From contig AP031351.1 in assembly GCA_037833965.1 (NCBI GenBank), positions 19,356,501-19,420,500 on the forward strand: 64,000 bases of DNA. The letters run 5' to 3'. A program made the position numbers and the translations under genes. This stretch comes from Marchantia polymorpha subsp. ruderalis (lineage: Eukaryota; Streptophyta; Marchantiopsida; Marchantiales; Marchantiaceae). Below, one piece after another: positions 1,557-35,430 of the stretch. Every line of letters begins with the position of its first letter. Position 1 is the first letter of the stretch. The notes beneath the pieces are model-generated. The model saw nothing but the letters and a program-made list of their open reading frames with translations, was not told the DNA's origin and did not search any database.

Positions 1557-1819
1557 TGTCATGTAGTTTTTGGTGTTTTGCTAAAAATAATGTCGAGCTT
1601 AGGGTTTGGGTCGTGAGGGGTATACAATTGGAGACGGCTCGAAGAACGTCAGTTCTTCGAGTCAAGCCTAGCGCGTTGGGAGTAGTGCCCAAGAGCATCG
1701 ACTTGCAATCTCAGAGTGTGGAGTGGGTTTGGCTTGACTATGTTTATGACAGTGACGGTTTTTGCCAGTAGGGTAAACAACCGACGGGAATTCCAGTGGG
1801 GAATCTCCCGTGTATTTTA
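1557..1819 (+). repeat. 5' terminal repeat of retrotransposon copy A
   Basis: Begins TGTCATGTAG and is roughly 80% similar by eye to the repeats at 17,249 and 28,491. It interrupts the coiled-coil gene. It keeps the TATACAA box (1,621-1,627), the hairpin CTCGAAGAAC-GTCA-GTTCTTCGAG and the predicted RNA start at 1,651. It starts at exactly the same base as the copy-B repeat, so TGTCATG is the natural left end of the family. Confidence 0.8.
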
Positions 1820-1830
1820 CTCGAAGAACT
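1820..1830 (+). promoter_or_regulatory. Predicted self-complementary primer-binding site, copy A
   Basis: CTCGAAGAACT lies directly after the terminal repeat. It is the exact reverse complement of 1,651-1,661, the predicted first 11 nt of the transcript. The same pair is intact in copy B although the surrounding repeat has diverged strongly. This is the arrangement used for self-priming by the Tf1 group of Ty3/gypsy elements. Confidence 0.7.
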
Positions 1831-4800: not shown

Positions 4801-5626
4801 GTGAGGAGTGTAGTAGAAGTATAGTCACAGTACCTCTTTCACAACCCATCATGTTATTGATATAGTACAAATGTTCTAGATTGTAAACTCATGAAAATTA
4901 AAGACAGCCCCAAGCTAGTGATATTGATTTCTTAAATTTGGGATTATTTGGGGGAGCTTCTATAGTTTCAGTAAGTTCAGTTGTATTCCTTGTCACAGGA
5001 AGAATAGTAGAAGTAATTTCAGTGCAGATGCTTCTTAAAATTTCTCCAAAGTGTAGAATTGGAGAAGTCATTGCTTAGTCTTCGGGTGGAGGTTGACGGG
5101 AAGCTATGATGTTGCTGTAAAACTATTAAATTTGTTTAATAGTTTTAGTGTTGAATTGGGCTGTAGCACAGAGTAGTATTCTTAAGCGAAAACATCTTTA
5201 CTTGGTGGATGTGAAAAGAAAAAAGAAAAAGAAAAAAAAGAAAAAGAAAAAGAAAAAAGTAGAAAAAAAAATATTCTGAAAAGATTGAAAACTTGCACTC
5301 AATCTTACCTATATGAGTTTTTCGGTTGTGAAGACATGTACTCATATTGTTCTTAGTGTATATGTTTGTTGAGGTAGTGGAAGTATATGTTTTAGCTGTA
5401 TCTCTTTTCTTATGGTGAACGATTAGAGTAAGTAACGGTTTTTAGATTTCTTGCCCTAGTGGAAGGAGAGGTGTGATTTGTTGTATGAGACAGCTTGGTG
5501 GAGATATCTTCTTTACGACGGGATGAAGGAGATAACGTTGGACGCGTGAAAGAAGCAGACACGGAGCATGACGAGTGGATGAACTTCCGCGCTACATGTG
5601 CATTTGCAGACGGAAGGTGGTAGGGG
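1831..5626 (+). other. Mosaic leader of retrotransposon copy A
   Basis: No convincing coding sequence is present. 1,831-2,510 begins like a retrotransposon leader. From about 2,513 to 3,270 a different sequence with its own TATA box (3,059) looks like a nested LTR or promoter segment. The short motif CGTTCTCTTCGTTGAG occurs on both sides of it (near 2,288 and 3,484), which suggests an insertion. 5,119-5,146 is an AT-rich palindrome resembling one upstream of copy B, and 5,215-5,270 is a GAAAAAG purine tract. A minus-strand ORF at 4,157-4,405 (82 codons) has no recognised domain. Confidence 0.5.
3059..3066 (+). promoter_or_regulatory. TATA box of a nested LTR-like segment
   Basis: TATAAATA followed by AGGGG and a GAG-rich stretch about 30 bp downstream, within non-coding sequence of changed composition (2,513-3,270). 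It reads like a plant polymerase II promoter inside a decayed LTR. The matching second LTR was not found in the window. Confidence 0.4.
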
Positions 5627-8600
5627 CGATGAAGATCGAATCGGGATCGCGAAGCGATGCGATGTCCCGTGTGTGTTGTCTTGTTTTGTGTTGTGTTTCC
5701 TTTAGACTGGAGAGTCGTTGCTAGCTGTTTGCTTGTGTTTGGATCCTCTCCAGTCTTGCTTCTTGGTGCGCGCCCGTGTAGGGGTGACGTTGATTTCCGG
5801 AGTAGTTTTACTCCTGTGTGCTGTCGATAGGGGGCTGGACTTGATCACCGGCCGGCCTATCCATGTTTCTCTCACGGTGAGATTGGAGTGATGACCAGTA
5901 GACTGTGAGAGTTTTCTTGCTGTGATGACAGGTTAGGTTGCCCATACCCATTAGCTAGTAGGGCTAGAGTAGCTCAGTGCGGCACGACGTCAGGGGCGGA
6001 TTGGGTTATTGGGTGGAGATCTGGCAGTGGTGCCAGTTGAGGTTTCGTCATCACGGAGCAGTATAGTGGTCTTGTCGAGGACCGCAGTGGATTTACGCGA
6101 AGTGGGTTGAGGTATCGGCTACCTTCACCTATCTCGCCAGTAGTTACAGAGGAGGACCAGAGTGATGCAGACAAAGAGTCTTCGGGGGTGATATCGTCTG
6201 GTGTTCCAACCCCATTGATTTGGGACATGGACGGGATGTACGGAGCCGTGAAGGGCCCTCGACGTTACTCTGGTGCAGTGGGCACCATCGAGCTCGATGA
6301 TTTTATTCAAGAGTTCAACACGTGGTGTGATATGCAGTTTCTGCGTAACCCCACGTTGTTTACATCCTTCTTTGCGTGGAAGAGGTTATTCCAGCACTTG
6401 GAGGGGCCTCCCATGAATGATTATCATGAGTTTGGGAGAGATTATGCTGCGGAGATTGATGCATGGAGACGTTATTGGTCTCCGAACTACTTATCCATTA
6501 CCCAGGGTGGTGTGGGTACCATTGGAGATGCGAGTATCGGCATCAGCGGAGGTGCGAGTAGTAGCATCAGCGAGGGTACCAGTGGAGCAGTTGGCGCAAC
6601 TGGTACTAGTACCAGTAGCGGTACAGTTAACATTGTTGGTGGCAGCACGAGGGGAGAAGCTAGTGGCGTACCTTCATTTAGCCCCATTCCTGAGTTCTTC
6701 CAGAGGTTGAGGAAGAACTATTAGGGGGTGAAGACGGAGAAGTTGAGGAGTCTCCAGGAGTTTGAGCGGAAGACTGGTGAGAGTCTTCGTGAGGCATACA
6801 GTCGTATGCAACGGCTGATATCAGTTACTCACGGTGTGACTGAGGCACAGGCTGTCCAATACTGGTATCGGATTCTGGACAGAGAGTTGCGGAGGAGAGT
6901 GTGTGATGCTACTCTCATGAGCGACTCATCACCCACATTAGCCCATGTGTTTGCTCTTTCTGAGAAGATTGAGCTTAACATGGTGGAGGAGAGGGTGGTG
7001 ACGTCTATATTTGCGAGGGACACAACCACTACTTTGCGTATCCCACATAGCACAGCACAGTCTCATCCCATGGGTGGTGATAGTGGAAGTCATGAAGGTC
7101 ATATACGACATCCTTAAGGTCACAGATAGCCTAGTGTGCGGCCACCACTGCCTTCATTTTCGGGCCAGCCACATGGACCGTCATGTTGGACATGCGGAGG
7201 TAGTCATATGAGGAAGGATTGTCCCCAGGAGAGAGAAGGACAAACTCCACAGGCTAGGCCACAGCCGGCACAGTTGACCTGTGATCACTGTCATCGACCG
7301 GGTCACCCTCAAGAGCGTTGTTTTGACCTTCATCCTGAGTTGAGATCTGGAAGGTAGAGGTCGTGGAGGTGATGCTCCACGAGGCCGAGGTGGTCGAGGC
7401 GGTAGAGGTACCGGTGCCATTGAGCGTACCGCAGCGAGTGCTACTTCCGCTACAGAGAGCGCTATGGCTGCTCGGATTGAGCAGTTGGAGCAGAGGCTTG
7501 CTGCTATGGCTGGTTTGGGGGCGAGCACTTCCACATGTTACGAGGGAGAGGATTTCTCCTATTTGGCTAGTGCAGCACAGGTTGAAGCATCAGTTGCAGT
7601 GACAAGAGGTGGTGCTCGCGCTTCAGAGCCACGTAATGCGATTGTGGAGTTGGACCCTTAGAGGGGTGAGGGTGGACGTTAGTCTAGACTTCCCCAGTCC
7701 TTTTTATTGTCAAAGGTGGCTAGCAGTTCATCTATGAGACCTACACCGCCTAGTGACACTTGAGTGAGAACTGAGGTTCTTACATCATCTGTTGTGGACG
7801 CAGACGTGCCATCTAGTGCAGTGATGCGGATGGCCACTTCTGTCTTGCAATCTCCATTGTTTTCAGCCACAGAGTTGATGGACTCGGGTATTGATTTGGC
7901 TCGAGTATTTCAGGTAGCAGCCACGTTGTGTGAGCGTGGGAGAGTCACTGCTACGAGTGCCGAGATACGTGAGGATACGGTTGAGGACCCATCCTCAACG
8001 TCTACATTGTTCGAGGAGACAACTTGGCAGGCGGCTACGGCGAGGATGGAGTCCTTACCAGCTCATTCAACCATTGATCGTGAAAATATTGTTCCTGGTG
8101 TATGTATGGTGGACAACCGAAATGGTCTATTTCGGTTAGTGAGTTCTACTGGACATGTGTATGTTCCAGCCAGAGTTTTGGTGGATTCCGGTGCACAGCC
8201 CTTGATGTTGGGCAAGGCTGCATGCATTAGTTTGGGTATTAGGATTTCAGAGTTGGAACCTTGCCCATTCCAGATCCAGACATCCCTTGGTGGCGCCAGC
8301 GATAGGTCGTACTTTATGACCAAGGAGAGCATAGCGGTGCAGTTGAGGCATGATCATGCTCATAATAGCTCCTAGTTTGGAGTTCGTGCGGTGGTTACAT
8401 CAGCAGAGTCATATGATGTGCTTGTTGGTGGAGCTGTATTATATCCGATGGGTTTTCGGATGGACTATTGGACGGAGACTGCTGCCTATCGTCTTGGTTG
8501 GCAGTCTGGCGATGGACGTCTCTGTGAGCTGCTAGTGAGATTTATTTCTTGAGATTGACCTCTTGGATCTTCATCTGCGGTCTTAGCATCCGTTGCGGGT

Positions 8601-10167
8601 TTCAGCGGAGTGCTTACCTGGCCTGATGACTTGTTAGAGGGGAACATGTCCGCCGACGATACCTCAGTCTACGAGGATATGGAGGAGGTTGTGAGTTTCA
8701 CAGCGGCGGTGACTTCACCCTTAGATGTTCCACTGTGGAGTTCTTGTCAAGCACTCCAGTTGGAGGCTGATAGGTTGGTGAAGCAGGCTTGGAGTGAAGC
8801 CTCTTTACCAGCAAAGCCAGAGAGGGCTTCAACTGATCGGCTAGTTGGTGGTTCTTGCGCATTGTTTCCATTGGTTACCACACCTATTGCATGGGAGTAT
8901 TCCTTAGGGGGCGTTTGTTTGCTGGATCTTTTTGGTGGGATCAGCACAGGTTTGGCTGCGGTGTTCAGTAAGGTATTCTCGTACGGAGATACTTGTATGT
9001 GGAGAAGGACGAGACTGCACGTCGAGTCTCTTCACGACACGTTGCATAGTTGATGCGGCGTTTTTCTTCGTTATTGCTGCGATCAGCTGTCCGAGGATTC
9101 CAGAAGACGTTGCCTTAAGACATTTTGTTGTTGGGGACGCCAGACCTTGACCGCGTTGGCCATATTGATATGGTGATTGCGGGCTCGCCATGTAAGGGAC
9201 ACACACGCACTGGACATGGGACAGGGTTGCATGATCCCAGATCTCGGATGTTTGGGAGATGATGCGAGTGTTACGTCATCTCTTAGTGCAACATACATGT
9301 TCTCCAGCATACATTCTGGAGAACGTACCATTGTTGGGTGACACTCGGACCCAGTTGATGGCGAGTGTCCATCAGGTCCGAGCATGGATTGGATCAGCAG
9401 TAATGTTGGATGCTGCGAGGGTTGGATCACGGGCTCATCGTGCACGTTTATGGTGGACCAACTTTTGCCACTTGAGATATTGAGTCATGCATATAATTCT
9501 TTGCAGCGTGATCCTACACTCACCGTTGACAGTATCTTGGATGTTTTCCGACACTCTCAGGTGGTGAGAGTTGCTGATAGATCGCCTATGGCGTTGGTGA
9601 ACCGCGTAGGTCAGGCTCTGATGGCTTTACCTACGTTGGTTAGTTATCCAGCATCACATGCATATCGTGATGGTGGACCTGGACTACTGTGGGATAGTAC
9701 AGTACATCAGTTGGTGGAGCCCAACGCTGATGAGAGAGAGCGTGCGATGGGATTTATGACTGTTGCGATCGCAACTGCTTTAGTTTTAGAGGCTTCGCGT
9801 CGTCATGTTTTGGGTCAAGCTATGGACCTGAACTGCTTGACGTGAATTGTGAGCTTGGATTTGGCAGAGCAACGCCGTTTGCGCGTTGATTTAGTGGTTA
9901 GTACACCACTTGTAGCTCATTGCCTATCGGGACGGTAGTGGCAATGGCTGGGGGCGACAGGCAAGATATTCGTCATCCTTGGAGTTCATGGGACGTGATG
10001 AGAGGACTTGCTAGAGTTGCCGCCCATGCAGTTGGAGAGGATTCTCATGTGACGTGGCTACGAAGGAGGGTATGGAGAACCCTTCTTTGCAGGATGTAAC
10101 ACAACAACCATTGACAGTGTCACCTCCCTCTAGTGTGTCTATGGAGGAGGAATGGGAGCCATTGTCG
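5627..10167 (+). pseudogene. Gag-protease-DNA methyltransferase polyprotein, decayed copy A
   Basis: Closely matches copy B (20,568-25,130) by eye. Order: structured leader (5,627-6,100), Gag (6,107-7,117), zinc knuckle CWTCGGSHMRKDCP (about 7,184), second knuckle (about 7,280), RGG-like stretch broken by a +1 insertion near 7,350, protease with the catalytic motif VDSGA (about 8,187), then a DNMT3-like methyltransferase. Motif I is LLDLFGGISTG (about 8,917), followed by a frameshift near 8,965. Motif IV reads GSPCKG (about 9,183), motif VI ILENV (about 9,315), motif VIII HRARLWW (about 9,435) and motif X is near 9,800. Many codons that are CAG, CGA or CGG in copy B are TAG or TGA here. Homology stops near 10,163 where another repeat abuts, so RT, integrase and PHD are missing. 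Dead copy. Confidence 0.9.
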
Positions 10168-14220: not shown

Positions 14221-14250
14221 CCATACCAGCCACTTCCGACACTCATAACT

Positions 14251-17163: not shown

Positions 17164-17248
17164 ATTAGCCTCTTAATCGTTTAACTGTTTAACCGCAGTT
17201 ATAAATCCCTAACCGAACCTGTGACCAGATTAATTGTTTTGTTTAAAG

Positions 17249-17540
17249 TGTCATGTAGTTGCGAGTCGGCTCACGAAGTTCAGACACTTACTATATTTAG
17301 CCGTAAAGTTAGGGTTCCGGTCACGAGGGGTATACAGTCGGGGACGGCTCGAAGAACGTCAGTTCTTCGAGTCGAGCCTGGAAGCGTTGGGAGCGTAGAG
17401 TGACTTTCCCCTTTGCGTCGACCTGGATTCTCCGAGTGTGGAGTGGGTTGGGCTTGACTCATGTTTGTGACGGTGACGGTTTGTTGCCAGTAGGGTAATT
17501 GACCGACGGGAATTCCAGTGGGGAATTCCCGTACATTTCA
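17249..17540 (+). repeat. 5' terminal repeat of retrotransposon B
   Basis: 292 bp, TGTCATG to ATTTCA. It matches 28,491-28,781 with three transitions over 291 bp. It holds the TATACAG box at 17,331, a perfect 10-bp-stem hairpin (17,349-17,372) and ends directly at the predicted primer-binding site. It lacks the 119-bp unit that flanks the right-hand repeat on both sides. Confidence 0.93.
17331..17371 (+). promoter_or_regulatory. LTR promoter: TATA-like box and predicted RNA start
   Basis: TATACAG at 17,331-17,337 lies 30 bp upstream of A17,361, the first base of AGTTCTTCGAG. The same 30-bp spacing occurs in copy A (TATACAA 1,621, AGTTC 1,651). Starting there would make the first 11 nt of the RNA exactly complementary to 17,541-17,551. 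The start site is inferred from spacing and complementarity; there is no transcript evidence. Confidence 0.65.
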
Positions 17541-17551
17541 CTCGAAGAACT
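17541..17551 (+). promoter_or_regulatory. Predicted self-priming primer-binding site
   Basis: CTCGAAGAACT immediately follows the 5' repeat and is the reverse complement of 17,361-17,371. No tRNA-type site beginning TGG is present at this position. The known precedent is fission-yeast Tf1 and relatives, where the first 11 nt of the mRNA fold back to prime minus-strand synthesis. Confidence 0.72.
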
Positions 17552-19922
17552 CGCTGTAAAACAGCAAAAAGAATCGTTGCTGGTGGTGTTGCAGAATTTA
17601 GCCTCTTGTCCTGGGATTAGTGATTTCAATTTTTCTTGTGGACTCCGGTAGTCTCGACTGGAGATTTGAAGTAGGTTGATCGACTGAGAGCGTTGATCTT
17701 GGGTGACGGTCTGGGGCCGTCAGTGACAGGAATACTGAGAATATTGTTGGATTTCGGTCGATAATCTTCGACGGGAAGAGGGAAAATTCAGTTTGAAGCT
17801 TCATTTCAGTACGTTCGTTCGGTTCGCGGAGTAAACGAAGTAATCTGTCACAGCAGTATTGGGGTGGCGGTAGTAGTGTTGTACGTAGTATCGCGGAAGC
17901 GAGCAAGCATATCGAGGAAAGGCGAATCAAGAAAGAAGCGATAGGCGAGGAGCGGTACAAGGCTACCCGAACAGGAGGACAGAGAAACAAACCCATTGTG
18001 CAAGAAGGGAGTTTCGTCCTTCTTTCTGCCTGTCGTACTAATTCCCTCTTCGGGAAGGGAAGAGGTCGCTGCACGGCTGGCTGGCTTCCCTTCATGTTCG
18101 GTTGTGCCCTGTAATTTGAATTGAATGCATCTGAAATTGAATTTGTTTTTAATTCGAATTAAATTCAAACTCACAGTATTTGAATTCGCAGAATTCAAAT
18201 TCAATTCGAATTCCCAAACTTTGAGTTCACAAAGTTCAAAATCAATTCAAAATTACAGAATTCGAAATCACAGAATTCGAATTCTGTGATCTGTGAATTC
18301 GAAAGGAGAGATTACAGGGAGTGAGAGAGAGGTTCTCTCTTCTTTGTGATCTACCCCCGCAGGCAAGCGGGGCGTGCGTGGTGAATCGGAAGCACGGGTT
18401 GCTCGATACTTTCGAGGTAGAAAGTATAAAATCAATCACAAGGGAGGCTTCTTTCCACGTTCTGAAACGCAAATGAGAAAGATTTTCGCCGCTCGCAGGG
18501 TACAGTCCTTTGGCTTTCTTTGAACTTTCATCATATCTGGTCGATGAGAGTGGAGAGCTGAAAGTGAAGGTTTGATTTAGTATCGACGGAATTTTGTGTG
18601 TGGAATCGGCTACTGTAAGTGCTGAGTAATATCCAAGTTTCCGCGGCTGCTTTGAATTGTGCTTTTTGATGCACTTGAGACTCCTGGATGCGATGGGCTC
18701 GAGATTTCGGGAGAGGAGAATTCTGTAGAGTTCAGCAAACAGCAAGACAATTAGAGTTCTGAGTTGAATTTACAAGAAGTGGGAGAGTGGAAGCAAAGCA
18801 GCCCGAGTAGTCTGTCTCTGTTCTCGCGTAGTCCTTCCATTCAGCGAAGTCATTTTTCATGGCCTCGATTTTAAATTATTCTTTCCCGTCTTGAAAAAAA
18901 AAAATATTCTTGTACTTCGAATCGTCGGGATTGCGTGGGGCTTGGTTTGATAAGGCGGATGATATTTTCTCGGGAAATTGGGACCGGAGGTGGCTGTTTC
19001 GGTTCTCGCAGCGCGGGGTTGCGCAGGTGTTGGTTGCAGGTCTCGTCAGCGAGATGAGCTGAGAGTCACGGAGAGATTTTCTGAAGAGCATAAATTGGGC
19101 GACGGTCTTCAGCGTTGGGAAGAGTGGATGGGTGCTCGGACGCTGGCAGCGGGTGAAGAATTTCGAACGAGGAGAACTGAAGTTGGAGGTCCACCTGCGG
19201 GAACAGCAAATTAGTGACTAAAGACTCAGAGGAGGTACTGTTAGAGGATAATTCGAAGAAGGGAAAAGAGCAGAATCTTTTGTTACCTTTGTTTCAGTAT
19301 CTGCTATTGGTACCATAGGCACCAACATTGGATACCTCCGAGCGAGTGAACACCAAGAAAGAGGGATCAGATCACCGGCACCGAATACAGAGATTATCAA
19401 ATGGGGTAAATGGAGGTAACTTACCCTGGTTAGCTTGAAGTTGGTTGCCATAACTCTCTCTCTTTCCTAAAACATTTCATGGTAAAAGAATGTTTAGTGA
19501 CATTGCTTTCGAATATCTACTTGGATGTTCAGCCACCTATATCCACACGAACTTAATTACATAGTGTGCTATACTTGAGCCAAAGAGGATTATGTGTGAC
19601 TTAGTTGGCATAATACCATACTGAAATAGTCCAATAGCTGTAGCCTCTGTTTTTGGAGATCTGCTAGGTGAAGTTGGCCTATGCAGGTCTTTTGATTACA
19701 ATCAGATTTGTGATAAAATACAGCAGTGCTAAGTTTGCTGTAGAAAATTTCAAATTCACTAGTTCAAGTGAATTTGTTTATGCCAAGTTCTTTAAAGCTA
19801 TTAAAACCTTTTAATAGTTTTATAGTTAAACAGTTTTCAGTTTTCCCTTCAGATTTAGTTTACAGATTCTCTGTAAAAACAAATATCCTTGTCCACAGTG
19901 AAGTGTTAACTATAAAGGGAAA
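17552..19922 (+). other. 5' leader of retrotransposon B, first part
   Basis: Non-coding by inspection. 18,120-18,300 is dense in AATTCGAATT-type sequence, including a perfect 24-bp palindrome at 18,267-18,290. Minus-strand ORFs here (17,598-18,095 and 18,242-18,745) are low-complexity shadows without recognisable domains. An AT-rich near-palindrome at 19,794-19,821 resembles one upstream of copy A (5,119-5,146). Confidence 0.55.
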
Positions 19923-20282
19923 ATGCCGCTTGGAGAAAAAGCGGATGACAGTGATATACAAGAAATCCAGACAGTGGAAGTCGTCAGTAGCGAGGAACGT
20001 GATCAGGAGCAAGAGGTGACGGTGCAGCCTCAAGTAGAAGAGAATCCGGTAAACACTGTTGTGGCAAAAGAAAAAGATTCCGGGTTAGATTGGGACGAGG
20101 CACTAGCCGTAGAGAAACTTCTAGAGGAATCCGGCCTAGAGTATAGGGTATGTGAGGATGAGTTACTAGACCTTCCACAGGATATTGCTGACCATTTGAG
20201 AGATGTTCAGTATGTTCAAGATTGTCTTTCAGAAGAAATTCTTGTACTAGAGAAATTTCTTGATAGTCTCCCAAAGGATTGA
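19923..20282 (+). CDS. Small acidic leader ORF of the retrotransposon
   Basis: 119 codons from an ATG in good plant context (GAAAATGCCG), uninterrupted. The product is strongly acidic. A low-complexity N-terminal half rich in Glu, Gln, Val and Asp is followed by a C-terminal half predicted as amphipathic helices (DWDEALAVEKLLEE, then LLDLPQDIADHLRDVQ and SEEILVLEKFLDSLPKD). No family is recognised. It lies inside the leader in a different frame from the polyprotein, with about 700 nt between them. It could be an accessory protein, a captured host exon, or chance. No counterpart was found in copy A. Confidence 0.4.
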   Translation: MPLGEKADDSDIQEIQTVEVVSSEERDQEQEVTVQPQVEENPVNTVVAKEKDSGLDWDEALAVEKLLEESGLEYRVCEDELLDLPQDIADHLRDVQYVQDCLSEEILVLEKFLDSLPKD

Positions 20283-20459
20283 TAGCAAATACTTGTAGCG
20301 TTTAGATAGGAGTTCCTGAAGGGATCGGGAGTTTGCACCCGGTTTCACTACCTGTGACGTGATGTTTTGAAAGCATTGTAAATATATATATGACGTAGTC
20401 AATATATTGAGCTTTCAGTGTGTAGTGTGTTTGTTGAGGGGCAGTGTGACCACTGTGTG

Positions 20460-20504
20460 AAGGAGAAAAAGAAAAAAAAAAAAAAGAAAAAAAAAAAGTT
20501 TTCA
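20460..20504 (+). repeat. Purine (A/G) tract upstream of the polyprotein leader
   Basis: GAAAAAG/polyA low-complexity tract. A similar one (5,215-5,270) precedes copy A, although intervening sequences are not clearly alignable. Confidence 0.6.
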
Positions 20505-20649
20505 AACAATTTTTGTTTGCAATTTGGTGGAAGAGGGCATCATAGGCACTGGAGGCCCACGTAAATGGAGGGCGATGGAGATCAAATCGGGATCGCGAAG
20601 CGATGCGATGTCCCGTGTGTGTTGTCTTGTTTTGTGCTGTGTTTCCTTT

Positions 20650-20857
20650 AGACTGGAGAGTCGTTGCTAGCTGGTTGCTTGTGTTTGGATCCTCTCCAGT
20701 CTTGCTTCCTGGTGCGCGCCCGTGTAGGGGTGACGCTGATTTCAGGAGTAGTTTTACTCCTGTGTGCTGGCGATAGGGGGCTGGACTTGATCACCGGCCG
20801 GTCTATCTATGTTTCTCTCACGGTGAGACTGGAGTGATGACCAGTAGACCGTGAGAG
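20650..20857 (+). promoter_or_regulatory. Three conserved RNA hairpins in the polyprotein leader
   Basis: Hairpin 1: AGACTGGAGAG (20,650-20,660) pairs with CTCTCCAGTCT (20,692-20,702). Hairpin 2: CAGGAGTA (20,743-20,750) pairs with TACTCCTG (20,755-20,762). Hairpin 3: CTCTCACGGT (20,815-20,824) pairs with ACCGTGAGAG (20,848-20,857). All three can form in copy A (5,704-5,920), with a G-U pair replacing one pair in hairpin 3. The position between promoter and Gag suggests a packaging or dimerisation signal or translation control; this is inference. Confidence 0.5.
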
Positions 20858-21052
20858 TCTTCTTGCTGTGATGACAGGTTAGGTTGCCCATACACCTTAG
20901 CTAGTAGGGCTAGAGTAGCTCAGTGCAGCACGGCATCAGAGGCGGATTGGGTTATTGGGTGGAGATCTGGCAGTGGTGCCAGTTGAAGTCTCGCCATCAC
21001 GGAGCAGTCTAGTGGTCCTGTTGAGGACCGCGGGGGATTTACGCGGAGTGGG

Positions 21053-23116
21053 TTGAGGTATCGGCTACCTTCACCTATTTCGCCAGTTGTTGCGGAGCAG
21101 GACCAGAGTGTTGCAGACAGAGAGTCTTTGGTAGTGATATCGTCTAGTGTCCCCACCCCATTGATTTGGGACATGGACGGGATGTACGGGGCCGCGAAGG
21201 GCCCTCGACGTTACTCTGGTGCAGTGGGCACCATCGAGCTTGATGATTTTATTCAGGAGTTCGACACGTGGTGTGATATGTAGTTTCTGCGTAACCCCAC
21301 GTTGTTTACACCCTTCTTTGCATGGAAGGGATTATTCCAGCATTTGGAGGGGCCTCCCATGGACGATTATCATGAGTTTGGGAGAGAGTATGCTGTAGAG
21401 ATTGATGCATGGAGACGGCATTGGTCTCCGAACTACTCATCCATTACCCAGGGTGGTGTGGGTACCAGTGGAGCTGCGAGTATCGGCATCAGTGGAGGTG
21501 CGAGTAATAGCATCAGCGAGGGTACCAGTGGAGCAGTTGGCGCAACTGGTACTAGTACCAGCAGCGGTACTGTTAGCATTGCCGGTGGCAGCACGAGGGG
21601 AGATGCTGGTGGCGTACCTTCGTTTAGCCCCATTCCTGAGTTCTTCCAAAGATTGAGGTAGAATTTTCAAGGGGTGAAAACGGAGAAGTTGAGGAGCCTC
21701 CAGGAGTTTGAGCGGAAGACTGGTGAGAGTCTTCGTGAGGCATACACTCGTATGCGACGGCTCATCTCAGTTACTCACGGTGTGACTGAGGCACAGGCTG
21801 TCCAGTACTGGTATCGGATCCTTGACAGAGAGTTGCGGAGGAGAGTGCGTGATGCTACTCTCATGAGCGACTCATCACCCACATTAGCCCATGTGTTTGC
21901 TCTTTCTGAGAAGATTGAGCTTAACATGGTGGAGGAGAGGGTGGTGACGTCTACATTTGCGAGGGACACGACCACTACCTCGCGTATCCCACATAGCCCA
22001 GCACAGTCTCGCCCCATAAGTGGGAGTCGTGGAGGTCATACACGACATCCTTCATGTCATAGAGAGCCTAGTGCGCGGCCATCACTGCCTTCATTTTCGG
22101 GTCAGCCACAGGGACCGTCATGTTGGACATGCGGAGGTAGCCATATGAGGAAGGATTGTCCCCAGGAGCGAGAGGGACAAACTCCACAGGCTAGGCCACA
22201 GCCGGCACAGGTGACCTGTGATCATTGTCATCGACCGGGTCACCCTCGAGAGCGTTGCTTTGACCTTCATCCTGAGTTGAGATCTGGAGGTAGAGGTCGT
22301 GGAGGTGATGCTCCGCGAGGCCGAGGTGGTCGAGGTGGTCGAGGTGGCAGAGGTGGTAGAGGTGGTAGAGGTACCGGGGCCATTGAGCGTACCGCAGCGA
22401 GTGCTACTTCTGCCACAGAGAGCGCTATGGCTGCTTGGATAGAGCAGTTGGAGCAGAGGCTTGCTGCTATGGCCGGTCTGGGGGCGAGCACTTCCACATC
22501 TTACGAGGGAGAGGATTTCTCCTATTTGGCCAGTGCAGCACAGGTTGAGACATCAGTTGCAGTGACCAGAGGTGGTGCTCCCACTTCAGAGCCACGTGGT
22601 GCGACTGTGGAGTTGGACCCTCAGAGGGGTGAGGGTGGACGTCAGTCTAGACTTCCCCAGTCCTTTTTGTTGTCAGAGGTGGGTAGCAGTTCATCTATGA
22701 GACCTGCACCGCCTACTGACACTAGAGTGAGAACTGAGGTTCTTACATCATCTGTTGTGGGCGCAGACGTGCCATCTAGTGCAGTGATGCGGATGGCCAC
22801 TTCAGTCTTGCGATCTCCATTGTTCTCAGCCACGGAGTTGATAGACTCTGGTATTGATTTGGCTCGAGTATTTCGGGTAGCAGCCACGTCGTGTGAGCGT
22901 GGGAGAGTCGCTGCTACTAGTGCCGAGATAAGTGAGGATACAGTTGAGGACCCATCCTCAACGTCTACATTGTTCGAGGAGACGACTTGGCAGGCCGCAG
23001 CGGCGAGGATGGAGTCCTTACCAGCTCGCCCAGCCATTGATCGCGAAAGTATTGTCCCTGGTGTATGTATGGTGGACAACCGAAGTGGTCTATTTTGGTT
23101 AGTGAGTTCTACTTGA
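21053..23116 (+). pseudogene. Gag region of retrotransposon B polyprotein
   Basis: First part of the single frame running 21,053-28,201. The frame is open from 20,987, has no early ATG and first meets ATG near 21,172, so the true start is uncertain. A capsid-like region (FIQEFDTWCDM, then SLQEFERKTGESLREAYTRM and RELRRRVRDATL) resembles plant retrotransposon Gag. Two CCHC zinc knuckles follow (about 22,121 CWTCGGSHMRKDCP and about 22,217 CDHCHRPGHPRERC), then an RGG-rich stretch (22,290-22,380) suited to RNA binding. In-frame stops: TAG 21,281 (CAG in copy A), TAG 21,659 (AAG in copy A) and TGA 23,114 (GGA in copy A). Gag would package the element RNA in cytoplasmic particles. Confidence 0.9.
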
Positions 23117-23119
23117 CAG

Positions 23120-25072
23120 GTGTATGTCCCAGCCAGAGTTTTGTTGAATTCTGGTGCAAAGCCCTTGATGTTGGGCAAGGCTGCATGCATTAGTTTGGGC
23201 ATTTGGAGGTCCGAGTTGGAACCTTGCCCATTCCAGATCCAGACATCCCTTGGTGGTGCCAGCAATAGGTCTTACTTTATGTCCAGGGAGAGCATAGCGG
23301 TGCAGTTGAGGCATGATCACCCTCATGATAGCTCGCAATTTGGAGTTCGTGCTGTGGTTACTTCAGCAGAGTCATATGATGTGCTTGTTGGTGGAGTGGT
23401 GTTATACCCGATGGGCTTCCGGATGGACTATTGGACGGAGACTGCCGCATATCGTCTTGGTTGGCAGTCCGGAGATGGACGTTTGAGCGAGCTGCCAGTG
23501 AGATTTATTTCTCGGGATCGACCTCTTGGATCTTCGTCAGCGGTCTTGGCATCTGTAGCAGGTTTTAGCGGAGTGCTTACCTGGCCCGATGACTTGTTGG
23601 AGGGGAACATGTCTGCCGACGATACCTCAGTCTACGAGGATGTGGAGGAGGTTGTGAGTTTCACAGCGGCGGTGACTTCACCCTTAGATGTTCCACTTTG
23701 GAGTTCGTGCCAGGCACTACAGTTGGAAGCTGATAGGTTGGTAAAAAAGGCTTGGAGTGAAGCCTCTTTACCAGCAGAGCCAGAGAGGGCTTCAGCTGAT
23801 CGGCTAGTTGGTGGTTCTAGCGCATTGTCTCCATTGGTTACTACACCTATTGCATGGGAGTATTCCTCAGAGAGGGTTTGTTTGCTGGATCTTTTTGGTG
23901 GGATCAGCACCGGTTTGGCTGCGGTGTTGCAGTCAGGTATTCCCGTACGGAGATACTTGTATGTGGAGAAGGACGAGACTGCACGTCGAGTCTCTTCACG
24001 ACATGTTGCACAGTTGATGCGGCGTTTTCCTTCGATGTTGCCGCGATCAGCTGTCCGAGGATTCCAGAAGGCGTTGCCTTCAGACATTTCGTTGCTGGGG
24101 GCGCCAGACCTTGACCGCGTTGGCCATATTGATATGGTGATTGCGGGCTGGCCATGTCAGGGACACACACGCGCTGGACATGGGACAGGGTTGCATGATC
24201 CCAGATCTCGGATGTTTTGGGAGATGATGCGAGTGTTACGTCATCTCCAAGTGCAGCAGACATGTTCTCCAGCATACATTCTGGAGAACGTACCATTGTT
24301 GGGTGACACTCGGGCCCAGTTGATGGCGAGTGTCCATCAAGTCCGAGCATGGATTGGATCAGCAGTACTGTTGGATGCTGCGAGGGTTGGATCACGAGCG
24401 CATCGTGCACGTTTGTGGTGGACCAACCTTTTGCCACGTGAGATATTGCGTCATGCCTATGATTCGGTGAAGCGTGATACTACACTCACCGTTGACAGTA
24501 TCTTGGATGTTTCCCGGCACTCTCAAGTAGTGAGAGTTGCTGACAGGTCACCTATGGCATTGGTGAACCGCATAGGTCAGCCTCGGATGGCTTTACCTAC
24601 ATTTGTCAGTTATCCGGCATCACATGCATATCGTGATGGGGGACCTGGACTACTATGGGACAGTACCCTACATCAGTTGGTGGAGCCCAACGCTGATGAG
24701 AGAGAGCGTGCGATGGGGTTTCTTACTGGTGTGACCGCGGCTTCTTCAGTTTCAGAGGCGTCGCGTCGTCAGGTTTTGGGTCAGGCTATGGACCTGAACT
24801 GCTTGACGTGGATTGTGAGCTTGGGTTTGGCCGAGCAACGCCGTTTGCGCGCAGATTTGGTGGTTGTAACACCACTTATTAGCTCATTGCCTACCGGGAC
24901 GGTAGTAGCAATGGCTGGGGGCGACAGGCGAGATATTCGTTATCCTTGGAGTTTATGGGACGTGACGAAAGGACTTGCCAGAGTTGCAGCCCATGCAGTT
25001 GGAGAGGATTCTCACGTGGAGGTGGCTACGAAGGAGGGTACAGAGAACCCTTCTTTGCAGTGTGTAGCGTAG
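23120..25072 (+). CDS. Protease and DNMT3-like cytosine-C5 DNA methyltransferase region
   Basis: A 650-codon open segment of the polyprotein frame. The protease flap region starts at once, but the catalytic motif reads LNSGA (Asn at 23,147), whereas copy A has VDSGA, so cleavage activity is probably lost. The methyltransferase occupies about residues 252-565. Motif I is LLDLFGGISTG (255-265), motif IV DMVIAGWPCQGHT with catalytic Cys346 (codon 24,155), then GTGLHDPRSRMFWE, motif VI YILENV (387-391), motif VIII HRARLWWTN (428-436), motif IX NADERERAMGF (524-534) and motif X RRQVLGQAMDLN (549-560). The motif IV extension, HRAR-WW and ERER.GF/RRQ.LG pattern resemble DNMT3 enzymes more than MET1 or CMT. 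All catalytic motifs are intact. Expected reaction: S-adenosylmethionine-dependent 5-methylation of cytosine in DNA. Confidence 0.92.
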   Translation: MYVPARVLLNSGAKPLMLGKAACISLGIWRSELEPCPFQIQTSLGGASNRSYFMSRESIAVQLRHDHPHDSSQFGVRAVVTSAESYDVLVGGVVLYPMGFRMDYWTETAAYRLGWQSGDGRLSELPVRFISRDRPLGSSSAVLASVAGFSGVLTWPDDLLEGNMSADDTSVYEDVEEVVSFTAAVTSPLDVPLWSSCQALQLEADRLVKKAWSEASLPAEPERASADRLVGGSSALSPLVTTPIAWEYSSERVCLLDLFGGISTGLAAVLQSGIPVRRYLYVEKDETARRVSSRHVAQLMRRFPSMLPRSAVRGFQKALPSDISLLGAPDLDRVGHIDMVIAGWPCQGHTRAGHGTGLHDPRSRMFWEMMRVLRHLQVQQTCSPAYILENVPLLGDTRAQLMASVHQVRAWIGSAVLLDAARVGSRAHRARLWWTNLLPREILRHAYDSVKRDTTLTVDSILDVSRHSQVVRVADRSPMALVNRIGQPRMALPTFVSYPASHAYRDGGPGLLWDSTLHQLVEPNADERERAMGFLTGVTAASSVSEASRRQVLGQAMDLNCLTWIVSLGLAEQRRLRADLVVVTPLISSLPTGTVVAMAGGDRRDIRYPWSLWDVTKGLARVAAHAVGEDSHVEVATKEGTENPSLQCVA

Positions 25073-25078
25073 CAACCA

Positions 25079-28000
25079 TTGACAGTGTCGCCTCCCTCTA
25101 GTGTGCCTATGGAGGAGGAATGGGAGCCATTGATTGGTTCCCAGATCACAGGAGGAGAGAGGCGACGATTGACACAATTCCTACGAGACTATAGGAGTTG
25201 TTTTGCTTTCAGTATGAAGGAGTTGGGTGCGTTGATTGGACCCGGTATACGGATAGAATTGGCTAGTGATACGCCAATCTTCCGTCGTCCTTATCGATAC
25301 AGTGAGATGGAGAGAGATTTGATTCGGAGTAGGACGTTGGACCTACTGGAGGCTGGACTAGTGGAGTTATCGCATGGTGAGTATGCGTCAGCCACTGTCA
25401 TGCCGGTGAAGAAGGATGTACATGGCAACTACACGGATAGGCGCATGTGTGGAGACTACCGTCCTATCAATCGGCAGACGAAGTCCGATAAGTATGCCAT
25501 GCCTACACCTGAGGAGATCTTCGATGTGGTGGGACATGCGAGGATTTTTAGTACTTTGGATCTTCGGGCAGGATACCATCAGTTGCCAATTCGGGAGGAG
25601 GACAAAACCAAGACAGCGTTTTGGGGCGTCAACTCCCACGGCAAGGATTGTTTGTATCAGTGGCGATTCTTACCCTTTGGGTTGAAGAATGCACCTGCCG
25701 AGTTTTAGAGGGTTATGGACAGAGACCTGGCGGGGCTGGATTTTGTGAGATGTTACATTGATGATATCTTGGTGTTTAGTGACACTATGGAGCAACACCA
25801 GATACACTTGCAGATTGTGTTTGAGCGATTGAGGGCTCATGGTTTGAGGTTACATCCTGGGAAGTGTAAGTTCTTCCAGGAGAAGGTTGAGTACTTGGGT
25901 CATGTGATATACCCAGGTGGTTTAGGAGTTCAGCAAGCAAAGGTGGAGGCTATTGCACGCATCCCTCGTCCCACGGATGTGAGTAGAGTTTGTGCATTTA
26001 TGGGTTTAGCGAACTACTACCGGAGGTATGTGAAGGGGTTCAGTGCTATAGCCAAGCCTTTGAATCAGTTGCTGAAGTCAGATCAGGAGTGGCAATGGGG
26101 AGATGAGCAGGAGAGAGCTTTTGTTGAGCTCAAGGCCAGGTTGGTGGCCGCTCCCATCTTGAGGAGACCTATCAGAGGTCGTCCATACCAATTGCACACT
26201 GATTGGAGTATGTTGGGACTTGGAGCGGTGTTGACGCAGCGTGATGATGAGGGCAAGGAGTTTGTGGTTGCGTACGCTAGTCGTTCGAACAATGCAGCGG
26301 AGTCGCGGTATAGTTCGTACGAGGGAGAGTGCTTGGCAGCGGTGTGGGCTGTGGCGCACTTCAGGTGTTACTTGTTTGGTACGCAGTTCACCCTTGTTAC
26401 TGATCATCAACCGCTCAAGTGGTTGATGGAGTCCGACAAGCTTACAGGGAAGCTTGCACGGTGGGCTCTCATCTTACAGGAGTACGACTTTCAGGTGGTG
26501 CATAGACCTGGAGTTGTGAACCTAGATGCCGATGGTTTGAGTCGAAACCCATGCACTAGCCAGGAGGATGACACTGGAGCTAGATGGCATGGTGAGGTTG
26601 ACGAGGAGATGGTGCCTGGTTGGCATGCATCTGCCTTCATGTGTTGGTTACGTGGGAACTCCAGCAGAGAGGATCATCTGACATCTTACTCTAGTCAGAG
26701 AGTAGATGGTCGATCTCCAGATCCTGAGGTTGAGGATGGTGGTGTGGATCAGCGTGATGTACACGATGATGCATTGGTGTTGGAGTTCCTACAGACCAGC
26801 ATGGTGCCAGGCACAGTGGGTGCCAAGGAGCGAGATCGTGTTCTCCAACGGGCCAAGAGGTACCGATTGGACGGATCACATGTTCTCCGAGTATGGGAGG
26901 ACGGTAGGGTACGAGTAGTACCACATCCAGCCCAGAGAGCACGCATTGTGAGGCATGCTCATGAGGAGTTGGGACATTTTGGAGTGAAGCGTACATACAG
27001 CTTACTCCTTGGTCAGTATTGGTGGCGTGGTATGCATACTCAGGTACAGCGGTTGGTATCACGTTGCATGGTTTGTGATCGAGTGAGGGCATCATTCAAT
27101 GCCCCGACACCAGTGTTACATCCATTACCCATCATGGGGTTGGGTTACCGTTGGAGTTTGGACTTTGCTGGACCACTACCTTTGACTGTACGACATCATC
27201 GGTATGTGTTGGTGATGGTGGAGCATTTCTCCAAGTGGATTGAGTTGGTGGCATTACCTGACAAGGCAAGTGAGGGAGTAGCGTATGCTTTTCTTGACAG
27301 AGTGCTTAGTCACTATGGTGCACCAGCTGAGGTGTTGACCGATCAGGGAACGGAGTTTCAGGGTGAGTTTCAGGTCTTGTGCGACAAGGCACTGATTGAT
27401 CATCGGACCACGTCGCGAGATCATCCAGAGGCGGATGGTTTAGCTGAACGTGTTGTACAGACGGTGAAGAAGGCGTTGCGCAAGTATGGCCTACAGAAAG
27501 GTCATCTTGGAGACTGGGATATCAAGTTACCGTGGTTGGCCATGGGATATCGGTTCAGTCGGCAGGCATCCTTGGCTTCCTTCTCACCATATTTTCTATT
27601 GTACGGCCGAGATCCAGACTTGCCAACATCGATTCGTCGTGAGTCTAGCGAGGTGGTGAACCTTGATGACCCGAATATGTGGGTGAGAGTATGTTCTCAA
27701 CGTGCGGAACTCTTTCGGAGAGTTATGCCTGCAGCGTTTGAGAATCTTGCGATTGCTCAACATAGAGATACGTTGCGGTATGCAACCATTCGAGGAGGAG
27801 GTTATCGACCATCAATTCGTAGATTCCATGTGGGAGACTACGTCTATCTACAGCAGACTGCACCGACGACATTGGATGTGACGGCGGGACGCACCATCTT
27901 GCGGGTGCGGGAGGTGTTACCTTCTGGAGTTCTCCTGTTGGAGGGTCGTGACGGCATTGTTTGGAAGGATCATGTGCGCAATTGTGCGCCATGCCACCTC

Positions 28001-28201
28001 CCAAACGTAGATGGCACTATGGACCCAAGCTTAGCGATAGTACGTGCTAGCTTGAGGTGCATGCTGTGTGGGTCGGCTGGTCAGGCGGCCCGTATGTTGG
28101 TGTGTGATAGGTGCTCTAGGGGATGGCACATGTCGTGTCTAACTCCGCCTATCGATGTTATTCCGGCTGGACGATGGGTTTGTCCTCGATGTACTTCATA
28201 G
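25079..28201 (+). pseudogene. Reverse transcriptase-RNase H-integrase-PHD region
   Basis: Continues the same frame after TAG 25,070. One further TAG lies at 25,706, at the Gln usually seen in the NAPAEFQ-type RT motif. RT runs about 25,330-25,960 with LDLRAGYHQLPI, WRFLPFGLKNAPA and CYIDDILVF (about 25,754). RNase H runs about 26,170-26,440 (LHTDWS, YEGECLAAVWA, TDHQPLKWL). Integrase: zinc domain HEELGH...CMVC (26,960-27,080), core with Asp in WSLDFAG, Asp in LTDQGTEF and Glu in GLAERVVQT (27,150-27,470), then a GPY/F-like module (VGDYVYLQ, about 27,830). Order RT-RH-IN assigns it to Ty3/gypsy. A PHD finger closes the protein where chromoviruses carry a chromodomain. From 25,715 the frame is open for 828 codons. 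Confidence 0.94.
28052..28201 (+). other. PHD finger at the integrase C-terminus
   Basis: C4-H-C3 zinc-binding order is complete: CMLC, VCDRC, GWHMSC, WVCPRC, ending three residues before the stop. The spacing and conserved Trp two residues before the final Cys pair fit canonical PHD fingers, many of which bind the histone H3 tail. It follows the integrase tail, so it would be tethered to the integration machinery. Confidence 0.88.
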
Positions 28202-28360
28202 GGGTAGATGACTTGATCTTCACATGTTATGAATTGCAGATAGGCGACTAATGATGGGGCGACATAGCACCCGGCCTACTGGTTCGCGCACCCACGAAGG
28301 TGTATAGCATGTAGTTGTAGATGGGGCTACCTGGGAGTCAGAGGGACCTGACCGCCAGCT

Positions 28361-28371
28361 AGGGGGGCGAG
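28361..28371 (+). promoter_or_regulatory. Candidate polypurine tract
   Basis: AGGGGGGCGAG directly precedes TTGTGACATTTG, the start of the 119-bp unit. In an ordinary LTR element the 3' LTR would begin here, which conflicts with the left end beginning at TGTCATG. See the split-repeat finding. Confidence 0.5.
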
Positions 28372-28488
28372 TTGTGACATTTGAGTGTGTACTCTCTCGT
28401 GCCTTATATGTGTGTATGTGTGTGCGTATGTGTATGTGAGTAGCATGTCAGCGATGTAGAGTGTATGGCGATATGTATTCGCACGACA
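28370..28488 (+). repeat. 119-bp direct repeat, left copy
   Basis: AGTTGTGACATTTG to CGCACGACA. Identical to 28,783-28,901 except one C/T. It is separated from the following 291-bp repeat by GC, forming the palindrome GACAGCTGTC across the joint. Confidence 0.92.
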
Positions 28489-28490
28489 GC

Positions 28491-28781
28491 TGTCATGTAG
28501 TTACGAGTCGGCTCACGAAGTTCAGACACTTACTATATTTAGCCGTAAAGTTAGGGTTCCGGTCACGAGGGGTATACAGTCGGGGACGGCTCGAAGAACG
28601 TCAGTTCTTCGAGTCGAGCCTGGAAGCGTTGGGAGCGTAGAGTGACTTTCTCCTTTGTGTCGACCTGGATTCTCCGAGTGTGGAGTGGGTTGGGCTTGAC
28701 TCATGTTTGTGACGGTGACGGTTTGTTGCCAGTAGGGTAATTGACCGACGGGAATTCCAGTGGGGAATTCCCGTACATTTC
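28491..28781 (+). repeat. 3' copy of the 291-bp terminal repeat
   Basis: Matches 17,249-17,539 with three differences (G/A, C/T, C/T), one at a CpG. It is bracketed by the two 119-bp repeats. With the second 119-bp unit it forms a 411-bp block, TGTC to GACA. Confidence 0.93.
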
Positions 28782-28782
28782 T

Positions 28783-28901
28783 AGTTGTGACATTTGAGTG
28801 TGTACTCTCTCGCGCCTTATATGTGTGTATGTGTGTGCGTATGTGTATGTGAGTAGCATGTCAGCGATGTAGAGTGTATGGCGATATGTATTCGCACGAC
28901 A
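28783..28901 (+). repeat. 119-bp direct repeat, right copy and element end
   Basis: Second copy of 28,370-28,488. It ends CGCACGACA followed by AAAG, which also precedes the left end of the element, so this is probably the true right terminus. Confidence 0.85.
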
Positions 28902-29193
28902 AAAGGTCCAAAAGGTCATCGAACGGTTGTAAACGAAAGCGTGTCTTGGACAAACAAATGGATTTGGCGCGAGCCTCGGAATAGGATTGACCGTCAGATG
29001 GTGCTCCAAACCTTATCTGACGGTCAGTTGATGAATCCGAATCCAAAACACAAGTCTGACCATCTTCAAGTTGACTCGATGATCCTTGCGGCTTGCCATA
29101 CCGTCTCGTTCACTGTTCTCTCATAGTTCAGCCGCCGTTTTTTCACAAGTTACAACACAGCTGTCTAGCGTAGATGGATATTAGCCTAGCACA

Positions 29194-33059: not shown

Positions 33060-34171
33060 TAACAAGTACAAGGAGATAAGATCTTATCTTCACTATCCAT
33101 CCCACTCCTTGTGGATGAATGACGTGACAGATAACCCTAACAAGCACACGGATTGCTGACGTGACGCTCCCAGCTAACACACTAACTAACACTCAATCCT
33201 TACCTAACAAGCACACGGATCACTTACATGACACTGTCAACTAACACATCTACTCTCTACTTACCAAGCATGCGGATCGCTGACGTGACAACTATGATTA
33301 GTGGATGCTAAAATATCTATATTCACATTTAGAGTAACCTGTACTTTAGTTCTAACTAAGTAAAGATGGTTAGAATACATCACAAAAACTAATGATTCAA
33401 TTTGACTTCTCATTTGAATGGAATCAACTTTGAGGTTCAAAATTAATTTCTAAATTTTAATATCTTTCAAACACTATAGGCTTAAAATGATACACACAAG
33501 ATTGTATGATGTGCTTTTTTATTTCAAAATTATAAATTTCATCAGAATTTGGAAAAAATCATCGCTCCACTCCAACTCTTTTGTAATATACAAATAAAAG
33601 TCCACAAGATTTGTGAAGGACAACTATTTTGTTTATCAATCACTAGACTGTAAGTCTGTTCATTCTGTTCTTTCACGACTGTAAGTATTTGCGAAACAAG
33701 TTTTGGATTGTTACATTCATATGACTGAATCAAATCAAAAGAAAAAAAATCCTTGATATTGGCGCTTCAATATATCTAAGAAAGTTAAAGCTATAGTGAT
33801 GATAAAAGTAACATGTGATACAACTTGGATTTCAATTTCACTTTAATGGGTTCAATTCCATTATTTCATTCCAATTTCAATAGCTAAAACAAAATTGTGA
33901 TTCACATATTACAGTCTTACATAGTTGCGAATAGGTAGGTGAAAACATCCAAAAATATGTCCAAGTGCAATCACACTTATAAATTTTCTTCCAAATTGTT
34001 TGAAATATGTGATAGCAATTTTTTGAAAAAAACTCATGCTTCTAGAAATTAATTCTCATCATCAGATCATTTATACGATCAAAATCAAATTCATTGTCAA
34101 CTTCAAATAATTTTGAACTAGTGATACCATTTGAAAGAATCATGATAGTTTGTCTTTATAAACACCGCCCT
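33060..34171. other. AT-rich DNA without a recognisable gene
   Basis: The sequence around 33,110-33,300 contains three variants of AACAAGCACACGGAT-xCTxACxTGAC about 65-90 bp apart. The remainder is AT-rich with short chance ORFs, such as 33,542-33,733 on the minus strand. Nothing assignable. Confidence 0.5.
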
Positions 34172-34898: not shown

Positions 34899-35430
34899 TG
34901 TAATGACAGACAAATACCAAAATGGAGCATAATGGTACAGATCCGTTACCACGAGGACAGAAACAACCACAAAAGTCACGATTTGTCATAGATTAGCATT
35001 CTATTAAAGAGTTTCACTTCTTAGGCCAATGCCACTCCCAGAAGACACTACCCATCTAGAGTCGAAGACCCGAAGAGTAGTGCATAACCTCACTCACAAC
35101 CTGAAACTTTTCCAAACAACGCCTGTAGGAATCGCTTGCAACTCCACACTTATATTTCAGGGAAAAAAATTTCCCAACATCGCATACATCTCAACTCACT
35201 ACCCGAATACTCAGACTCAAATTTGCTTAAATCCCAAGGAGCCTCAACTGCTAAAGACACTCGAGCCGAATACTCACAACTCCTGATGCCGTAACTTCGA
35301 CAAACAGGAGCGCATCGTGCCTCAGGCCTGGATCACACACAAGTGCAAAGAGACAGTGGATACAGATTCACAATCAAGACAAGCCAATTGACAAAAAAGC
35401 CCCCCAAGGAAAGAGCTTTGGGCCTCTTTA
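34899..35430 (+). repeat. TGTAATGACAG repeat, direct copy R5
   Basis: Begins TGTAATGACAGACAAATA directly after R4. It is a diverged subtype that matches the reverse complement of R1. It ends near the coiled-coil relic at 35,432. A head-to-tail pair of LTR-like units without internal sequence. Confidence 0.65.

Follow-up and report, generated by a model that had tools for sequence, protein, structure and literature searches.

The window considered here is a 64,000-nucleotide stretch of the forward strand of the liverwort Marchantia polymorpha subsp. ruderalis (assembly GCA_037833965.1, contig AP031351.1, positions 19,356,501 to 19,420,500). It contains what reads as one damaged copy of a multi-copy Ty3/gypsy retrotransposon family with a captured DNMT3-class cytosine methyltransferase. 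The order that can be read from the element is a first open reading frame (ORF) for Gag with a CCHC knuckle, protease (PR) and DNA methyltransferase (DNMT), then UAG CAA CCA, and then, in the same frame, reverse transcriptase (RT), RNase H, integrase (INT) and a PHD finger. The element and its coding features are as follows.

17245..17248, + strand: left 4-bp target-site duplication AAAG (direct reading)
17249..28901, + strand: whole element, repeat A1 to repeat B2 (repeat map and flanks), with ends TGTCATG...CACGACA
20987..23113, + strand: Gag region with zinc knuckle(s), polyprotein frame (knuckle by eye; Pfam silent there)
23117..25069, + strand: ORF part with aspartic protease, linker and DNMT (Pfam, translation, relatives' protease)
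23837..24841, + strand: DNMT3-type C5-cytosine methyltransferase domain, 335 aa
24146..24168, + strand: catalytic motif IV, Gly-Trp-Pro-Cys-Gln-Gly-His (exact coding pattern recurs genome-wide)
25070..25078, + strand: conserved leaky stop UAG CAA CCA (fits UAG-CARYYA)
25073..26485, + strand: RT and RNase H (PF00078, PF17917), with a private stop at 25706
26927..27427, + strand: integrase zinc domain and DDE core (PF17921 7.8e-16, PF00665 6.9e-14)
28058..28192, + strand: PHD finger at the integrase C-terminus (PF00628 6.6e-11)
28902..28905, + strand: right 4-bp target-site duplication AAAG (direct reading)

The ORF at 23120-25072 (651 codons from 23117) has a sole Pfam match, to PF00145 (6.3e-10; 39.4 bits, cut-off 22). 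Of the C5 methyltransferase motifs that an initial annotation of the sequence had recognized, what are taken here to be motifs I (LDLFGGISTGL), IV (GWPCQG), VI (ENV), VIII (AHRAR) and X (GQAMDL) are present in canonical order, with the catalytic Cys codon at 24155-24157. The fold is that of DNMT3, at about 21-25% identity to DNMT3A/B in structural alignment, and a sequence search of the PDB matches DNMT3 at E 2e-10 and DNMT2-type chains far more weakly, at 1e-3. The domain also groups with DNMT3 in a tree that held no DNMT2. Because plant DNMT3 was absent among the matches listed, this tree was limited to two DNMT3 references, both partial, and its outgroup consisted of 5 of 19 viral-contig loci. 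Sequence, structure and tree agree in placing the domain closest to DNMT3. No PWWP or ADD match to Pfam was found in the element ORF, and no DNMT1 or CMT chain appears among 53 PDB matches, in a search without a direct test aimed at DNMT1/CMT.

Other origins were considered for the domain. DRM enzymes have a rearranged motif order, with VI-X before I-V; the order in the element is not rearranged, and DRM identity was rejected. A viral origin was rejected as well, since the 19 viral-contig loci with relatives (24-43% identity) look like phage-type methyltransferases, and bacterial contamination is rejected by the polyprotein context and by copies on all nine contigs of the 241-Mb assembly that was searched. 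The element DNMT is 33% identical to the exons of a spliced DNMT3-like gene of the host (C6:12459429-12460019, L146). The accessible part of a paper on Marchantia methylation counts five methyltransferases, one MET, two CMT and two DRM, with none in retroelements (PMC5784723), and the spliced host gene contrasts with this list of MET, CMT and DRM only.

A single register runs from 20987 to 28198, interrupted by stops at 21281, 21659, 23114, 25070 and 25706. The polyprotein frame reported in the initial annotation therefore holds as a register but is not open: the stop at 25070 is family-wide, whereas the other four damage the window copy, with those at 21281 and 21659, in Gag, being private to it or to few copies. 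Upstream of the DNMT, 42% identity over 574 aa to the relative P0087, whose own PF13650 match lies at 763-849, identifies the protease, and with PF00078 downstream the proposed location of the DNMT between protease and RT is borne out. The protease motif of the window copy is NSGA, compared with DSGA or DTGA in relatives; together with four stops absent from the family, this makes the window copy very likely dead.

The stop at 25070 is of another kind. Of 68 copies surveyed, four have matches that end short, and in all 64 others, the window's included (30 + 34), UAG is followed by CAA; 62 fit UAG-CARYYA and the remaining two read CAA CAA. Six copies whose protein identity is about 88% have altered flanking codons but an unchanged UAG CAA, and an exact 18-mer, TAGCAACCATTGACAGTG, occurs 124 times genome-wide with no occurrence of the reversed control. 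UAG-CARYYA is the readthrough signal of tobamoviruses (PMC4132726). This conservation across copies led to rejection of a random stop at 25070. An MLV-type 3′ structure as the sole cause of readthrough was likewise rejected (fold z -1.9), and a genome-wide reassignment of stop codons was dropped, as the other stops are copy-private and 10 of 13 in PR-DNMT replace a majority CAG, CAA or TGG. Of the protein relatives, 43 have an ORF that extends to the end of the DNMT and holds 150 aa or more before it. An RT match is absent from the DNMT's ORF in 32 of these, although three stop within about 26 aa of the domain and carry little weight; in five distinct ORFs from the environment the tail beyond the DNMT has the same length, 94 aa. 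RT follows in the same ORF in six, which are plant gene models whose predicted introns may skip a stop, and a second architecture, described below, accounts for the other five. A UAG after the DNMT would make it the C-terminal part of a Gag-PR-DNMT product made in excess over RT-INT, and its expected level of synthesis is therefore that of Gag and not that of RT.

The family is abundant, with copies on 9/9 contigs. The exact coding pattern of GWPCQGHT occurs at 184 places in the genome (reversed-pattern control, 0), and at least 123 scored places match PF00145 and at least 148 match a DNMT3A piece, a few host genes being included. RT copies were paired with 179 DNMT places drawn from three profile or sequence scans of the genome. 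Among the matches listed, a DNMT lies within 3.5 kb upstream of 101 of 130 RT copies and within 12 kb for seven more; 22 are without one, of which two show the catalytic motif where expected. A DNMT3-like enzyme as a family trait of this land-plant Ty3/gypsy element, as initially proposed, is thus supported by 110 of 130 RT copies. Intact members lacking the enzyme had been named as the observation that would speak against the proposal; the majority do not lack it, and for the other 20 RT copies no DNMT is among the matches listed.

The element DNMT is under purifying selection, much as RT is. Its pooled ratio of nonsynonymous to synonymous differences (pN/pS) is 0.30 (378 pairs, 28 copies), compared with 0.26 for protease and linker, 0.28 for RT (27 copies) and 0.29 for Gag (8 copies); L018 and L025 were excluded for indels, as they were from the C>T count below, and copies below 88% collinear identity were also excluded. 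PR-DNMT is free of stops in 16 of 28 copies. C>T changes found in single copies amount per site to 0.136 at CG, 0.123 at CHG and 0.080 at CHH in PR-DNMT, and to 0.147, 0.137 and 0.068 in RT.

The integrase ends in a PHD finger rather than a chromodomain, for which Pfam gave no match at the C-terminus, and the element does not qualify as a chromovirus. The PDB relatives of the finger include CHD4, KMT2D, PHF12, DPF, PHF21A, KDM5B and ATXR5, several of which read unmodified H3K4. No tyrosine recombinase was matched in 11 element ORF pieces scanned, the short leader ORFs being partly covered. The second architecture is seen in P0093 and P0094, which have the order RT-RNase H-DNMT-integrase-PHD, and in P0096, which has the same order without a PHD match. 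Their DNMTs form a clade (99/98) with those of five proteins in which the DNMT lies beside integrase or after RNase H. As P0093 is 50% identical to the window element in RT-RNase H and 49% in integrase-PHD, the DNMT thus appears either to have moved within one pol lineage or to have been captured twice from near relatives.

Among named proteins, those of M. polymorpha itself come nearest (95% over the whole query); a partial M. paleacea protein is 75% identical. Further relatives come from Calypogeia fissa, Riccia sorocarpa, four Sphagnum species, two Closterium strains and many environmental contigs; no protein named for Klebsormidium is among the matches listed. The Sphagnum relatives sit on contigs of 15-25 Mb, and five (P0014, P0056, P0092, P0103, P0146) are 52-83% identical to the window DNMT, several of these models being partial or gapped. 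Sphagnum identity is about equal to that of partial M. paleacea (75%) or Riccia (73%), and the tree places P0092 beside Calypogeia, weakly (94/71). The family may have passed horizontally between mosses and liverworts. The catalytic Pro-Cys-Gln is preserved in most aligned liverwort, Sphagnum and environmental relatives; Closterium P0058 has Ser-Cys-Gln and P0062 Glu-Cys-Gln, and these may be worn copies or a variant.

The ends of the element are built from two repeats in the split layout A1-coding-B1-A2-B2, with the following features.

17249..17539, + strand: repeat A1, 291 bp, 98.97% identical to A2
17361..17372, + strand: AGTTCTTCGAGT inside A, presumed RNA 5′ end and self-primer, the 12-nt reverse complement of ACTCGAAGAACT
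17540..17551, + strand: ACTCGAAGAACT, presumed primer-binding site, directly after A1
28358..28369, + strand: GCTAGGGGGGCG, presumed polypurine tract, abutting B1 upstream
28370..28488, + strand: repeat B1, 119 bp
28485..28494, + strand: B1-GC-A2 junction, palindrome GACAGCTGTC
28491..28781, + strand: repeat A2, 291 bp
28783..28901, + strand: repeat B2, 119 bp, the right end of the element, 99.2% identical to B1

This layout is shared by the family. The whole B-A-B block is matched at 40 of 42 listed places, which were ranked by that very match, with 40 of 782 candidates scored. Among 20 copies chosen instead by DNMT match, 13 have a clean B-A-B, three are aberrant (L061, L067, L074) and four (L063, L069, L076, L080) show no B2 within the fetched stretch. 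All four copies with both ends seen have TGT...ACA outer ends and 4-bp duplications (AAAG in the window, AAGA in L081/L061, AGTG in L084/L065, AAAG in L091/L075); 5′ ends were sought in 12 stretches picked by guess, and A1 is absent from six of these. Against the 12-nt self-primer complement, none of 419 control leader stretches reaches 11 nt. ACTCGAAGAACT is identical after A1 in L082, L084 and L091, and both it and AGTTCTTCGAGT are unchanged in a second copy within the window; the leader just 3′ of this site diverges strongly among the window, L082 and L084. The G-rich tract precedes B1 in 50 of 50 3′ stretches (L031-L080, including 12 places represented twice), with single substitutions at most. 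Tf1 uses self-priming, and the pair formed by AGTTCTTCGAGT and ACTCGAAGAACT resembles it.

With a primer site abutting A1 and a G-rich tract abutting B1, the usual logic of reverse transcription gives B-GC-A as the copied repeat, and the integrated A...BAB is then its circular permutation. The cDNA would be self-primed as in Tf1 and then circular, and opening of the circle by integrase at the B-GC-A palindrome would account for the A-B-A-B order. The B/A junction, ACA-GC-TGT in 49 of 50 stretches and ACA-AC-TGT in one, fits this view. At the A/B junction, the presumed join of the cDNA ends, 27 of 33 distinct places (39 of 45 stretches) are exact, four deviate by one or a few bases and two are grossly odd. 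These two are L067, which has 172 bp of internal sequence between A2 and B2, ending in sequence from the DNMT/RT border, and L074, with a truncated A and the terminal order B-A(1-146)-B-A(1-271)-B. B1 and B2 differ on average by 0.25 within copies (n=28) and by 1.44 between copies, and so appear to be renewed together; A1 and A2 show 1, 2 and 4 differences in three copies and 3-8 between copies, a weaker contrast, in a range that omits pairs with the truncated A2 of L082 (32-37).

These junctions also bear on the strongest competitor, which dispenses with a circle: the true LTR would be A-B (A2-B2), the 5′ LTR would have lost its B, B1 would be a duplicated end, and the family would descend from one altered master. 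In its favour, A2-B2 by itself ends in TGT...ACA, and the A/B junction is exact in most places. However, the primer site after A1 and the G-rich tract before B1 mark B-A as the copied unit, and the joint renewal of B1 and B2 is set against this scheme, the A1/A2 contrast being weaker. It is accordingly rated as unlikely, though it should be kept in mind.

The explanation favoured here, to which a little better than even probability is given, combines DNMT capture, packaging at Gag level, cDNA methylation, PHD targeting and the self-primed circle. The DNMT would be made at Gag level and packaged into every particle, and there, ahead of integration, it would place de novo methylation on freshly made cDNA. 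Integrase would be guided by the PHD finger to nucleosomes whose H3K4 is unmodified, a setting in which DNA methylation is the normal state. Each insertion would then arrive pre-marked, and the host would maintain the methylation, tolerate the copy and suffer little harm. The initial annotation had suggested that the enzyme might methylate new cDNA or the site of insertion, and both roles are conjectural. Action on cDNA in the particle is preferred because the DNMT lies on the Gag side, is akin to DNMT3 and is under purifying selection, and because a retroelement Dnmt3 from a dinoflagellate is active in yeast.

Several observations weigh against this explanation. The reading of unmodified H3K4 by the element's finger is presumed from its resemblance to the relatives named above. 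The CG and CHG wear fits methylation after insertion without saying who methylates, and host enzymes would suffice. Other retroelements do without a DNMT, 20 of 130 RT copies have none among the matches listed, and the gypsy DNMT of Klebsormidium was without activity in yeast, a result its authors rated inconclusive (PMC5890265). The DNMT runs into RT in a single ORF in P0044 and P0099 (both outside the 43-relative filter) and, by eye, in Closterium P0058, and the second window copy (5624-10164) has sense codons at the position of the leaky stop; the stop is therefore confined to the window's family and near relatives. Finally, of the 33 distinct A/B junctions, presumed to arise by end joining, 27 are exact and just two grossly odd, so that they lend weak support to a circle. 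The specific proposition of a DIRS/LTR-hybrid gypsy, with a self-primed circle opened at ACA-GC-TGT, pre-methylation by Gag-level DNMT3 and a PHD finger that picks silent chromatin, giving an insertion dressed as heterochromatin, is doubtful.

Slightly more doubtful still is that the DNMT serves self-restraint by methylating integrated copies, or hastening the host in doing so, and thereby keeps copy number and host cost low. De Mendoza et al. put this forward as one option (PMC5890265), and the C>T wear at CG and CHG is as expected for methylated DNA; however, Gag-level expression through a leaky stop is more readily reconciled with a protein of the particle than with a scarce regulator in the nucleus, and host MET, CMT and DRM could achieve the same unaided. 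A DNMT2-like action on genomic RNA or tRNA, helping packaging or priming, would suit a DNMT adjoining Gag and a self-priming RNA structure, but is very improbable given that DNMT3 is the closest relative by search (2e-10 against 1e-3 for DNMT2-type chains) and in the tree, which included no DNMT2. That the DNMT is a functionless passenger, for which the dead window copy and the RT copies without a listed DNMT might speak, is scarcely credible and largely contradicted already by a pN/pS close to that of RT, the Pro-Cys-Gln preserved in most relatives and retention of the DNMT at two polyprotein positions.

The remainder of the window adds one further copy of the family.

1599..10164, + strand: second copy, older and damaged, with an A-like repeat at 1599-1830 and Gag-PR-DNMT at 5624-10164

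The diverged second copy of the initial annotation is thus real: it is 91.6% identical to 20570-25132 over 4573 columns and frameshifted, its A repeat is 83% identical, and the rest of pol is unmatched after 10164. A gypsy-like RT fragment (by eye) adjoins it on the minus strand at 11617-12391. Repeats of other kinds, in both orientations and 74-89% alike, lie at 10169-14253 and 34167-36421, and a presenilin gene occupies 48261-49814 on the minus strand (PF01080 7e-124, a single 517-aa ORF). In the leader of the main element (17552-20986, about 3.4 kb), the scan of ORF pieces against Pfam gave nothing credible.

The question of why a transposon would encode an enzyme that normally silences transposons dates from 2018, with described cases in dinoflagellates and a charophyte (PMC5890265). 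With a family abundant in Marchantia, a tractable model with methylomes and mutants, the question becomes testable, and the leaky stop, the PHD finger and the repeat and insertion logic are concrete mechanistic handles. That the DNMT occupies two positions, and that relatives extend across mosses, liverworts and an alga, speaks for a partnership both old and mobile. Neither the PHD finger nor the A-B-A-B repeats nor the leaky stop had figured in the initial annotation.

The initial annotation had regarded a DNMT3-like enzyme at this position in a land-plant gypsy element as unusual, but novelty of the kind as such is not supported. In Klebsormidium nitens, the polyprotein of KnitGypsy-Dnmt3, likewise of gypsy type, already includes a Dnmt3 that is intronless and not rearranged, and the element shows DIRS-like repeats and purifying selection (PMC5890265). 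SymbioDIRS-Dnmt3 of Symbiodinium encodes an enzyme whose CG methylation was demonstrated in yeast (PMC5890265), and some DNMT3 reside in streptophyte and dinoflagellate retrotransposons, with LTR Copia and DIRS named (PMC12344493). In the open-access literature, most subscription journals lying outside the search, no report was found of a liverwort or Marchantia element of this kind, of split repeats with a DDE integrase or of a PHD finger in LTR elements. Within that scope the land-plant hosts, high liverwort copy number, leaky UAG and PHD finger are new, as are the target duplications, self-primer, junction analysis and second DNMT position.

Compared by description only, KnitGypsy-Dnmt3 and the window family share the RT-RNase H-integrase order, a non-rearranged Dnmt3, A-coding-B-A-B repeats and purifying selection; the host of the latter differs in being a liverwort and thus a land plant. 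The accessible account of KnitGypsy-Dnmt3 does not mention a leaky UAG, target duplications or a self-primer, and "PHD" has no occurrence in its main text (PMC5890265). SymbioDIRS-Dnmt3 is alike in its A-coding-B-A-B repeats and in a Dnmt3 within pol, but has a tyrosine recombinase and a DIRS-type RT where the liverwort element has a DDE integrase. Split direct repeats are likewise common to DIRS/PAT elements and the liverwort element, which differs from them in its DDE integrase and 4-bp duplications. The enzyme itself resembles plant and animal DNMT3 in motif order, fold and tree position. In LTR retrotransposons of the Tf1/sushi type, too, the 5′ repeat is followed immediately by a sequence complementary to an internal stretch and suited to self-priming, whereas the liverwort element adds split repeats, a PHD finger in place of a chromodomain, and a DNMT. 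Finally, the UAG-CARYYA context is shared with the leaky UAG of tobamoviruses, and the liverwort element uses it between Gag-PR-DNMT and RT-INT.
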